This document shows positions 2,963-9,295 of a DNA stretch of 64,000 nt, piece after piece. The translations under genes were made by a program, and so were the position numbers. The first letter of the stretch is position 1; each line of letters starts with the position of its first letter. The stretch is taken from NCBI GenBank assembly GCA_009885955.1, contig VFJS01000031.1:124001-188000 (forward strand). The letters are read 5' to 3'. The notes below the pieces were generated by a model. The model was not told the origin of the DNA. It was given only the letters and a program-made list of their open reading frames with translations, and did no database searches. This DNA is from Spirochaetia bacterium. GTDB lineage: Bacteria; Spirochaetota; UBA4802; UBA5550.

Positions 2963-3105
2963 TTATAATTAATATAATAAGAATATTCCTGAATAACAAG
3001 TTAATTATAAATATCAATTTTTTTCAATCATTTTAGAATAAAATGACAATAAATAGGCTGAACATGGTACATTTTTTTGACTTTCCCAAATTTTTATCTT
3101 TAATT

Positions 3106-3144
3106 TAAGGGAACCTCGAATAGTATTGATTTGTGGTTCCCTTA
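3106..3144. other. 10-bp stem hairpin in the 5' region of the zinc-ribbon gene
   Basis: A perfect 10-bp inverted repeat (taagggaacc at 3106-3115, ggttccctta at 3135-3144) with a 19-nt loop lies 38 bp before the start of the small zinc-ribbon gene. A TTGACT hexamer at 3077-3082 with TTTAAT 16 bp downstream could be its promoter, which would put the hairpin in the mRNA leader. No U-tract follows on either strand, so it is not an obvious terminator. Confidence 0.4.
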
Positions 3145-3181
3145 TAGACATATATTTTAATACGATGACAGGAGAATAACC

Positions 3182-3364
3182 ATGAATACACCAACACACT
3201 GCCCTGGATTTGAATCATTCAAAAAACTTGAATCCTTTAAATGCAAGTGCCCGAAATGCAGCAAGGAAAACGAAATATTCTCTGATGAATTCAATAAAAA
3301 CCGGAAATGCTCCGGCTGCGGAGAATATATCGATTTCACAAAATGTTCACTTGTTCAGGGCTGA
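3182..3364 (+). CDS. small zinc-ribbon protein
   Basis: A 60-residue protein with two CxxC knuckles, CPKC at residues 23-26 and CSGC at 40-43, so it very likely binds one zinc (or iron) as a rubredoxin-like zinc ribbon. The start is supported by a good ribosome site (AGGAGA, 7 bp before ATG). Small proteins with this N-terminal CPGF and central CPKC pattern are found as stand-alone genes in anaerobes; I do not know a demonstrated function. It is transcribed alone, between the divergent CULT gene and the subtilase gene. Confidence 0.7.
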   Translation: MNTPTHCPGFESFKKLESFKCKCPKCSKENEIFSDEFNKNRKCSGCGEYIDFTKCSLVQG

Positions 3365-3473
3365 ATTAAACATCAAAAATCAGGGAGCCGGTTATCATTA
3401 TATCAGCGATATACCGGCATTATAGTTGACAGATATTATTGATGTTTTATCGAATTAATTATTGTAATTATCC

Positions 3474-5039
3474 ATGGTAAATATTATTTTACCACAGATG
3501 CTAACATTTATGCCAAGAATTAATTTTTCTGTAAAAATACCGTTTTTTGCAGTTTCGTTATTAATAATTATCAGCAGCGCTTTATCCTGCTCAAATGACC
3601 ACAAAAAAAAGAAACTTCCCCTGGACCCTCTCTTCAAGGATCAATGGCATCTGCAAAATACAGGTCAGGGCGGCGGTATTCCCGGCATGGATATTAATGT
3701 AAGCAGCGCATGGAGCAGGGGATATTATGGATCGGGGATAAAGATAGCCATTGTTGACGATGGGCTCGACTACAACCATGAGGACCTTAAAGACAACATC
3801 CTGACCGCATATAACTATAATTATGTGACTGGTAATTCGATAATTAACAGCGGTTCACATGGCACCTGTGTGGCAGGCGTTGCAGCAGCGGTACATAACA
3901 ATGTCTATGGCGGGATGGGTGCCGCACCTGAAGCAAATCTCTTCGGGTACAACCTCCTGGTTGCATATACTGCAGTGAACGAACATAATGCCATGATTGG
4001 AAATCTGAATATCATCGATGTTTCAAATAACAGCTGGGGCCCTGCTGACGGAACAGGACAGTTGATCCCGTCTCCCATTACATGGCAGATGGGTATTGAT
4101 GAAGGTGTAACTTACGGAAGAAACGGGAAGGGAATAGTATATCTGTGGGCTGCTGGGAATGGCGGACAATCGGAAGTGGATAACTCCAACTATGACGGAT
4201 ATGCCAACTATTACGGCGTTACCGCAATTTGTGCCGTCACGGACCAGGGGACCAGGGCCTGGTATTCGGAAAAGGGAGCTAATCTCTGGGCCTGTACCTA
4301 TTCCAACGGCGGTAGTTCAGGAATAACAACTACTGACATAACAGGTTACGGAGGATATAAAACTTCTTCCAACTATTATAACGGCTTCGGCGGGACATCA
4401 TCGGCATCGCCACTTGCCGCGGGAATTGTCGCCCTCATTCTCGATGCCAACCCGAACCTCTCCTGGAGGGATGTGAAGAACATACTTGCCGGCTCGGCAA
4501 AGAAAATTGATCCAACAGACTCCGATTGGCAGACAAACGGAGCAGGTTATCATATAAATCATAAATACGGCTTTGGAGCTATTGATGCATCGGCGGCAGT
4601 GGACCTGGCCCTTACATGGACTAATCTTTCCGCCATGAAAACTGCAACAGCATCATTAATAACACTTAACCAGCCAATCCCTGAAAATAGCAGCGGCATT
4701 ACATCCACTTCAACAGTGACTGGGACCGGCATAACCCATATTGAATACATGACATTAGCGATCGACATCAATCATTCCTATTCAGGAGACCTGGAAATTT
4801 CCCTTAAATCTCCAGCAAATACAGTAAGCATCCTGTCGGAAGAACATATATGCTGGGATGATTCCGGCATCAATCAGGCGACATGCACCTATTTCCAGGG
4901 CGGCAATAGCTTCACCTTCGGTACTGCCAGAAACCTGGAAGAAGCTGCCGACGGCCTTTGGACATTAACAGTTAAAGACCTTGCATCAGGGGATATCGGG
5001 ACAACGACAAGCTGGCACCTTACGTTTTACGGGAGATGA
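3474..5039 (+). CDS. subtilisin/kexin-like serine protease lipoprotein with P domain, lacking a propeptide
   Basis: An S8 family serine protease of kexin type. A hydrophobic signal segment (residues 20-38) ends in a lipobox with Cys39 (SALSC), so the mature protein is predicted to be a lipoprotein. The catalytic triad is visible: Asp95 in IVDDGLD, His129 in GSHGTCVAGV and Ser309 in GTSSASP; the oxyanion Asn lies in SNNSWGP. A proprotein-convertase P domain follows at about residues 400-521, with the typical SGDLEISLKSP and DGLWTLTVKD segments. The catalytic domain begins almost immediately after the lipobox (LDPLFKDQWHLQNTGQ is the usual first segment of the mature enzyme), so no propeptide is present. 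The start codon is uncertain; ATGs at 3498 and 3510 are equally possible and none has a clear ribosome site. The stop overlaps the next gene by 4 bp. Confidence 0.92.
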   Translation: MVNIILPQMLTFMPRINFSVKIPFFAVSLLIIISSALSCSNDHKKKKLPLDPLFKDQWHLQNTGQGGGIPGMDINVSSAWSRGYYGSGIKIAIVDDGLDYNHEDLKDNILTAYNYNYVTGNSIINSGSHGTCVAGVAAAVHNNVYGGMGAAPEANLFGYNLLVAYTAVNEHNAMIGNLNIIDVSNNSWGPADGTGQLIPSPITWQMGIDEGVTYGRNGKGIVYLWAAGNGGQSEVDNSNYDGYANYYGVTAICAVTDQGTRAWYSEKGANLWACTYSNGGSSGITTTDITGYGGYKTSSNYYNGFGGTSSASPLAAGIVALILDANPNLSWRDVKNILAGSAKKIDPTDSDWQTNGAGYHINHKYGFGAIDASAAVDLALTWTNLSAMKTATASLITLNQPIPENSSGITSTSTVTGTGITHIEYMTLAIDINHSYSGDLEISLKSPANTVSILSEEHICWDDSGINQATCTYFQGGNSFTFGTARNLEEAADGLWTLTVKDLASGDIGTTTSWHLTFYGR

Positions 5040-5662
5040 AGGGGATGATAAAAAAAAATTCTCTTAAAATAACATGCCTCACCATTCCATTCGCAGCGCT
5101 ATTATTCATTAATTTTCCATTCCTTTCTTTATCATCAGCCCAGAACCTGAACTATGAGATTGTTCATTACAGCGAAGGTAAAAAAAGCCATACATTAAAA
5201 CTTCTCCATGAAGAGATCGCAGAAATTAACGGGGATAATGACGGCCAGGAAAGGGGCAAAGGCATTAATGATGACAAAGCCGAATTGATTTCAGAGAAAA
5301 AAAATATAAGGCTGTGGAAAGTGACGGTTGATTGGCACAGGGCTTATTTCAGCAAGGGGCGCCAGGCTGGTGATATAAAAGGGACCTATTCGCCGGTTTT
5401 CATTGATCCCTCAGGGAGAAAAAGGGTTCTGCCGGGAAATATAATTGTTTTCATGAAAAAAGGAATGAACGAGGGGGATGTCATAACATGGGCCGGCGCG
5501 AAGGGGCTTAAAATTATAAAAATTGTATCCCGGTACAGCAATTCCTATGTTTTATCTACCCCGCCCGGAATTGAAAGCCTGAATATGTCCAATGAGCTTA
5601 ATAATGACGAATCGGTTGTTGCATCTACTCCAGACTGGTGGACCGAAGTATTTCACAGGTAG
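5036..5662 (+). CDS. secreted stand-alone subtilase propeptide-like protein
   Basis: A 208-residue protein with a signal peptide (hydrophobic residues 10-33, likely cleavage after SSA). Its start overlaps the protease stop (ATGA), so the two are translationally coupled. The C-terminal half (PSGRKRVLPGNIIVFMK, then KGLKIIKIVSRYSNSYVLSTP, then DESVVASTPDWW) looks like the propeptide that normally precedes the mature domain of kexin/fervidolysin-type subtilases, ending where the mature domain would start. The neighbouring protease lacks this region. Such propeptides act as folding chaperones and inhibitors, so I infer that this protein folds and/or inhibits the protease in trans. The middle (residues 60-95) is charged and low complexity. 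The similarity is from pattern reading and has not been aligned. Confidence 0.65.
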   Translation: MKGMIKKNSLKITCLTIPFAALLFINFPFLSLSSAQNLNYEIVHYSEGKKSHTLKLLHEEIAEINGDNDGQERGKGINDDKAELISEKKNIRLWKVTVDWHRAYFSKGRQAGDIKGTYSPVFIDPSGRKRVLPGNIIVFMKKGMNEGDVITWAGAKGLKIIKIVSRYSNSYVLSTPPGIESLNMSNELNNDESVVASTPDWWTEVFHR

Positions 5663-8917: not shown

Positions 8918-9295
8918 ATGGGTTTAACTCGAGTTACAGCAAAAATCAGCAACCTGACAAAAACAGGAGTTTCATACGAAGCTGAATTTTTAGTTGATAC
9001 AGGCGCAATAGACTGTCTGGTTCCGGGAAATGCTTTAGTAAACGCAGGAATAGAGGTAGAAGGGAAGGAGGTCTATCAACTGGCAAACGGGCAGGCTGTG
9101 GAATCTAACTATGGATTTGCAAGGATATCCTTTATGGGATATGAAACAGTGACTCAGGTAATATTTGCACCTGAAGATATTGAACCAATTCTTGGAGTGG
9201 TAGCGCTTGAAAACGCAGGCATAGGAGTTGACCCGGTTACGAAGACTTTAAGGCGTATGACTGCCAAGCCGTTAAAAAAATATAGTCTTCTTTAA
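8918..9295 (+). CDS. clan AA retropepsin-like aspartic protease
   Basis: A 125-residue single-domain protein with the retroviral-type aspartic protease pattern: FLVDTGA at about residues 25-31 (DTG active site) and a C-terminal ILGVVALENAGIGVD hydrophobic-hydrophobic-Gly motif. It matches the small bacterial clan AA family that would act as a homodimer, contributing one Asp per subunit. The substrate is unknown. It stands alone upstream of a degenerate hicBA module. Base use is like its neighbours. Confidence 0.75.
   Translation: MGLTRVTAKISNLTKTGVSYEAEFLVDTGAIDCLVPGNALVNAGIEVEGKEVYQLANGQAVESNYGFARISFMGYETVTQVIFAPEDIEPILGVVALENAGIGVDPVTKTLRRMTAKPLKKYSLL

Follow-up and report, generated by a model that had tools for sequence, protein, structure and literature searches.

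Two adjoining genes lie on the forward strand of the window, the 64,000-nucleotide stretch of the Spirochaetia contig VFJS01000031.1 analyzed here. The first (positions 3474–5039) encodes a 521-residue kexin-like S8 protease with a P-domain, a predicted lipoprotein without a propeptide, and the second (5036–5662) encodes an exported protein of 208 residues, which family profiles, an alignment, and an AlphaFold model support as a detached propeptide. Both open reading frames lie where a sequence-only reading of this DNA had put them, and they share the four bases ATGA (5036–5039), in which stop and start codons overlap, making translational coupling likely. Promoter and terminator scans returned no signal clearly over expectation.

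The kexin-like protease and its small downstream neighbor

The classification of the first product follows from Pfam and PDB matches. Peptidase_S8 covers residues 86 to 368 (E = 4.5e-41; catalytic domain at 3729–4577) and P_proprotein residues 424 to 518 (1e-13; proprotein convertase P-domain at 4743–5027); the nearest PDB relatives are kexin and furin, followed by the Aeromonas protease ASP (3hjr, 3wqb). D95 (3756–3758), H129 (3858–3860), N229, and S309 (4398–4400) are all present and, together with the P-domain, place the enzyme in the kexin subfamily S8B. The acidic pair characteristic of the kexin S1 pocket is also present as D192 and D241, the counterparts of what we take to be D277 and D325 of Kex2. 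The S2 acids that give Kex2 its dibasic preference, presumably D210 and D211, are absent, with G127 and S128 found at these positions, which are variable across the family; their absence predicts monobasic rather than dibasic cleavage by the window protease. Dentilisin PrtP was considered as an identity for this protein and rejected, with the NCBIfam model denti_PrtP scoring 35.4 bits against a cut-off of 300.

At the N terminus, a signal peptide (3474–3590) closes in a lipobox-like ALS-Cys39, a match to a sequence pattern only; lipoboxes of spirochaetes are loose in sequence. The segment DPLFKDQWHL (residues 51–60, 3624–3653) aligns to the mature N-termini of kexin and of relatives that carry their own pro-region in a single chain, referred to below as one-piece proteases. 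Because only 11 residues separate Cys39 from Asp51 of this mature-like start, the protease has no prodomain, just as the sequence-only reading had described it.

The small protein begins with a signal peptide (5036–5143), a low-confidence part of the model, for which cleavage is expected near SSAQ-NL. An N-terminal β hairpin (residues 40–64, 5153–5227) is shared with the pro-region of one-piece relatives, as judged from the alignment and models; a C-terminal segment (5426–5659) is defined by the AlphaFold model and its structural matches and ends in Arg208 (5657–5659), the predicted P1 residue for the S1 pocket of the protease, with the stop codon directly after it. No Pfam model was reached by this protein, a direct sequence search of the PDB and profile searches gave no significant match, and NCBIfam holds no family for it. 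The PC1 prodomain (1kn6) aligns with it in register up to the last residue, at an E-value of 1 that is too weak to count alone.

Homology to cis propeptides and the predicted fold

A profile of the small-protein family matched the N-terminal pro-regions of six one-piece proteases from other phyla (2e-22 for L112, 8e-22 for L138, 1e-16 for L103, 1e-14 for L124, 6e-11 for L080, and 4e-10 for L134). In four of the six the match is near full length, stopping just before an NDPLF..QWHL motif, and a basic site, RTKR, RVKR, RTTR, or similar, marks the junction of pro-region and mature enzyme in the one-piece chains. A profile built from spirochaete sequences only aligned with the L138 pro-region over 169 columns (hhalign E = 9e-17), and the window protein by itself reached 1e-9 against L138, but 0.016 against L112. 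For the alignment, one-piece rows were trimmed by hand at the basic junction and separate genes kept their native stop codons; a mixed alignment of split halves and one-piece chains was set aside, its C-termini being misplaced. The Pfam family PF22148 (Fervidolysin_NPro-like) scores above its cut-off in four spirochaete relatives (G101, G120, G124, and G164), though not in the window protein itself, and appears at E-values up to 0.1 in 14 of 34 aligned members, one-piece pro-regions among them. In fervidolysin this prodomain is part of the protease chain, whereas it is a separate protein in the four matching spirochaete relatives.

These comparisons support the small protein as a detached propeptide homologous to the cis pro-region, by a link that runs through its family. 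It had been suggested from the sequence that the C-terminal half looks like a prodomain and ends where the mature enzyme would begin. The end point agrees with the one-piece matches, which stop at the basic site; the prodomain likeness is borne out as homology but was drawn too narrowly, since the whole exported part, N-terminal half included, matches the one-piece pro-region. The one-piece kexin-like proteases (from Desulfobacterales, Hydrogenedentes, Lentisphaerae, and others) thus share both a homologous pro-region and the protease with the window pair and differ in being single chains, expected to be cleaved at the basic site, that are not lipoproteins. Two loci show further arrangements: L103 has a separate lipoprotein-like propeptide gene (L103:2606–3334), its product ending in ATRPESR, just upstream of a one-piece zymogen with its own propeptide, and in a myxococcal small protein of 158 residues (L085:5426–5902) most of the prodomain core is gone, with the N-terminal half and a PDFWMRGFAR tail at the C terminus retained.

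The AlphaFold model of the window small protein (pLDDT 85) was compared with known structures, a comparison for which subtilase prodomains had been proposed as the reference. After VIA re-alignment, the top nine chains comprise only subtilase prodomains or pro-enzymes and the ASP partner ORF2, with pro-subtilisin E at Z 8.2, the PC1/3 prodomain bound to furin at Z 8.1 (72 residues, 1.9 Å), and the BPN' prosegment also among them. ORF2 (3wqb_B) aligns at Z 7.0, a score below 8 that common arrangements can also reach, with 91 of 99 residues at 2.4 Å over residues 41 to 208, and is the only one of the nine that spans both halves of the small protein. Unrelated folds start at Z 6.7 in the same ranking. 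Because Foldseek E-values of the model are all greater than 0.001, the fold assignment depends on the VIA re-alignment together with the homology to cis propeptides; on its own the fold match is modest, and it counts jointly with the sequence link. When the one-piece zymogen L112 was modeled, its protease portion resembled furin (Z 50), but the prodomain is not placed as in pro-subtilisin (20 Å over 432 columns), so that docking of the propeptide is unsupported by this prediction.

Distribution of the pair and conservation of its predicted contact residues

Among 392 spirochaete genomes, the small-protein profile identified 20 genes in 19 genomes and the protease profile identified 23 genomes, which include all 19 with a small gene; a convincing small gene is absent from all 369 genomes that lack the protease, and weak matches of the small-protein profile in the phylum (E-values of 6e-4 to 0.009) were counted as chance. 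The small gene lies directly 3′ of the protease gene in 16 spirochaete genomes, at a spacing of −11 to +249 bases, mostly below 40, and the flanking genes differ among these pairs. The protease profile, run against genome contigs, yielded 80 loci, and at 20 of these, all outside the spirochaete records, a propeptide-less protease is followed by the small gene. Recurrence in 16 spirochaete genomes amid differing neighbors and at 20 loci elsewhere shows that the pairing is not a product of chance. In three genomes of one genus (G101, G120, and G195), the small gene and the protease gene are on different contigs, which suggests that the small protein acts in trans.

The D-H-N-S residues are intact in all 18 spirochaete proteases that adjoin a small gene, and catalytic residues have been lost in three of the four genomes with a protease and no small gene (the Asp in G148 and all four in G188 and G199). 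Two genomes count against a split zymogen: G112 has an intact protease and no detected small gene, and G195 keeps the small gene with an unlinked protease that looks frameshifted. The kexin-like pseudoproteases of G188 (L146) and G199 (L147 and L148), without a small partner gene, have the catalytic four replaced by S-L-D-G and S-S-D-R. At another locus (L049:2905–7096, in G116), a single small gene lies between two intact kexin-like protease genes, and one propeptide may serve two enzymes there.

At the position of the basic junction, the last residue of the separate small proteins is exactly Arg or Lys in 40 of 41 sequences, against an overall K+R content of 12%; the single exception (L060:4142–4783, in G203) has the conserved Arg followed by a 19-residue tail, which could be cleaved off. 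D192 and D241 show no variation across 39 split proteases, and this acidic S1 pair would fit an Arg or Lys at P1, just as the missing Kex2-type S2 acids would fit small proteins whose penultimate residue varies. This pattern bears on whether the small gene might be a non-functional remnant of a broken one-piece zymogen, as could be imagined from its separate frame beside a complete protease and from a window copy that falls under every Pfam model. We regard such decay as extremely unlikely, given that the small gene lies 3′ rather than 5′ of the protease, encodes a signal peptide of its own, has persisted in many families and phyla with Arg or Lys conserved at the C terminus, and belongs to proteases that one tree branch (see below) parts from the one-piece enzymes.

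Known split systems, proposed mechanism, and predicted lipid anchoring

The nearest studied system is that of Aeromonas sobria, in which the kexin-like, propeptide-less protease ASP requires for its maturation the chaperone ORF2, encoded just downstream; ORF2 inhibits ASP with an IC50 of 84 nM, its C-terminal Lys lying at the catalytic center, and asp-orf2-type operons are on record for four other genera (PMC5638518). In a 2022 survey, ASP stands as the exception among subtilases for its lack of an N-terminal propeptide chaperone (PMC9549277). The window pair resembles ASP/ORF2 (PDB 3HJR and 3WQB) in combining an S8 and P-domain protease without a propeptide with a small gene directly downstream, whose product, like ORF2, ends in a basic residue. 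The sequence-only reading saw in this a reversed gene order; the protease gene is indeed first, but that order was already known for asp-orf2 (PMC5638518).

At the level of sequence the small protein falls outside the ORF2 family. The window small protein scores 11.3 bits against the ORF2 family PF18492 (cut-off 29.2), although it is the sole match in its own genome, and hhalign of the small protein against the ORF2 of Vibrio campbellii, with an unrelated control run alongside, gave 1.8%. Plasmid records held no further ORF2 relatives, so no ORF2 profile could be built. The V. campbellii pair (L142) is of ASP type (PF18492, 1.1e-25), and its protease has a long branch, lacks the D192/D241 pair, and shows no lipobox by eye. 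The window lineage differs from it in these respects. Unlike the ASP type, it bears the sequence signs of a lipid anchor and is related to one-piece enzymes whose propeptide is homologous. By analogy, the window small protein would work like ORF2 while falling outside PF18492.

We consider it likely that the two genes form a split zymogen, that is, an exported, lipid-anchored protease with a soluble external propeptide that acts as chaperone or inhibitor, as proposed from the sequence alone and now joined by the homology to one-piece cis pro-regions and the predicted prodomain fold. The ASP/ORF2 precedent and the genomic pattern lead us to infer the role in trans as chaperone and inhibitor, and binding, lipidation, and the place of both proteins in the cell are likewise proposed. 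Protease and small protein would be exported separately, and the small protein would assist as an external chaperone by binding the protease during folding. The tail of the small protein, with Arg208 where the ancestral enzyme processed itself, would then enter the active site as a mimic of a cleaved product, and the enzyme would be inhibited at first and become active once the small protein dissociates or is degraded. A protease with no need of its own cleavage could retain its N-terminal lipid anchor.

Prodomain-like folds as separate products are also known from MEROPS family I9 (POIA1, yeast PBI2, and Plasmodium SUB1-ProM), of which 1v5i_B aligns to the window model at Z 6.1. The proteases that such stand-alone inhibitors target come with propeptides of their own, and the inhibitors are not known to be dedicated partners in folding. 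The small protein might, on this pattern, purely inhibit and so guard the cell envelope, with the protease folding unaided. Propeptide-like inhibitors unneeded for folding (POIA1, PBI2, SPI-1, and SUB1-ProM; PMC6993865) give it precedent, and some small-protein homologues are unlinked to a protease; however, the window protease has no pro-region of its own, the small protein covers the entire cis pro-region beyond the inhibitory core, and ASP requires its partner for maturation, which together make inhibition alone improbable. Myxococcus PopC and PopD, compared by function alone, also pair a subtilisin-like protease with a separate inhibitor; PopD complexes PopC, blocks its secretion, and is degraded on starvation (PMC6434023).

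Another spirochaete surface subtilase with separate partner lipoproteins, the Treponema denticola dentilisin complex PrcB-PrcA-PrtP, requires PrcB (PMC8167434), and by that example the propeptide-like small protein could stay permanently in complex with the protease, as a subunit or anchor. Residues 19–158 of PrtP form a cis propeptide, and its mature form is lipid-free and held by PrcB and PrcA1 (PMC8167434). In the window pair the lipobox is on the protease itself and the small protein has an ordinary signal peptide; with denti_PrtP at some 35 bits against 300 and no denti family matched by the small proteins, we judge a permanent complex very unlikely.

Returning to the split zymogen, we examined its origin in a tree of 63 proteases from which the Vibrio ASP-like row and L126 were left out. 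One branch (support 100/99) has all one-piece proteases on one side, a single change of state suffices, and the split was probably a single event in this lineage. A quick tree that included both rows needed two changes, with an unsure placement of the Vibrio protease on its long branch. Binning of metagenome-assembled genomes may misname hosts, as for L075, which was binned as an archaeon and nests with spirochaetes.

A crude lipobox pattern occurs in 32 of the 39 split proteases. Of the seven without it, two are truncated at a contig end, and most of the remainder show a lipobox by eye at another start codon. The pattern was found in two of 50 one-piece or unassigned proteases; many one-piece rows are archaeal, and lipobox and split may both be marks of a single clade. 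Of these two, L078 resembles a split protease on a contig that ends within the gene, and in L138 the Cys sits in the hydrophobic core of the signal. A propeptide encoded by its own gene would spare the lipid anchor because a cleaved cis propeptide would carry the N-terminal lipid away, as in PrtP of dentilisin (PMC8167434), and keeping the anchor may have been the reason for the split. Whether the pair represents an old two-gene zymogen class, probably from one split and common to Spirochaetota, Pseudomonadota, Nitrospirota, Bdellovibrionota, and Myxococcota, whose separate propeptide gene let a kexin-like protease retain its N-terminal lipid anchor, seems to us evenly balanced. Several split proteases of Nitrospirota and Pseudomonadota (L065–L069, L076, L088, and L118) have an extra domain of ~80 to 100 residues between lipobox and catalytic domain, in the propeptide's place, which reads TPYFYVVTAVN... 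and is FN3-like by eye.

The proven chaperone and inhibitor action of ORF2, with the same gene order, lowers the surprise of the window pair; new here are the breadth of the distribution, the direct tie to one-piece zymogens, a single supported branch for the split, and its link with a predicted N-terminal lipid anchor. The results point to a widespread lineage of kexin-like proteases that lack a propeptide and pair with a separate partner, the partner being tied by sequence to real cis propeptides. They provide natural split and one-piece enzyme pairs for studying the conversion between intramolecular and external chaperones, with a testable reason for the split in the lipid anchor that is kept, and proteases of this kind may be inactive when expressed alone.

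Other protease genes were noted in passing. A short open reading frame of the window (8918–9295) encodes a retropepsin-like aspartyl protease (Asp_protease_2, 2e-5). The only other S8 protease of this genome (G000:C102, locus L015) is IetS (L015:3995–6421; 1e-103), adjoining the AAA ATPase IetA (2982–3998; 4e-93) and a type IIG restriction enzyme-methyltransferase (15–2873), a locus read as an Iet anti-phage system.
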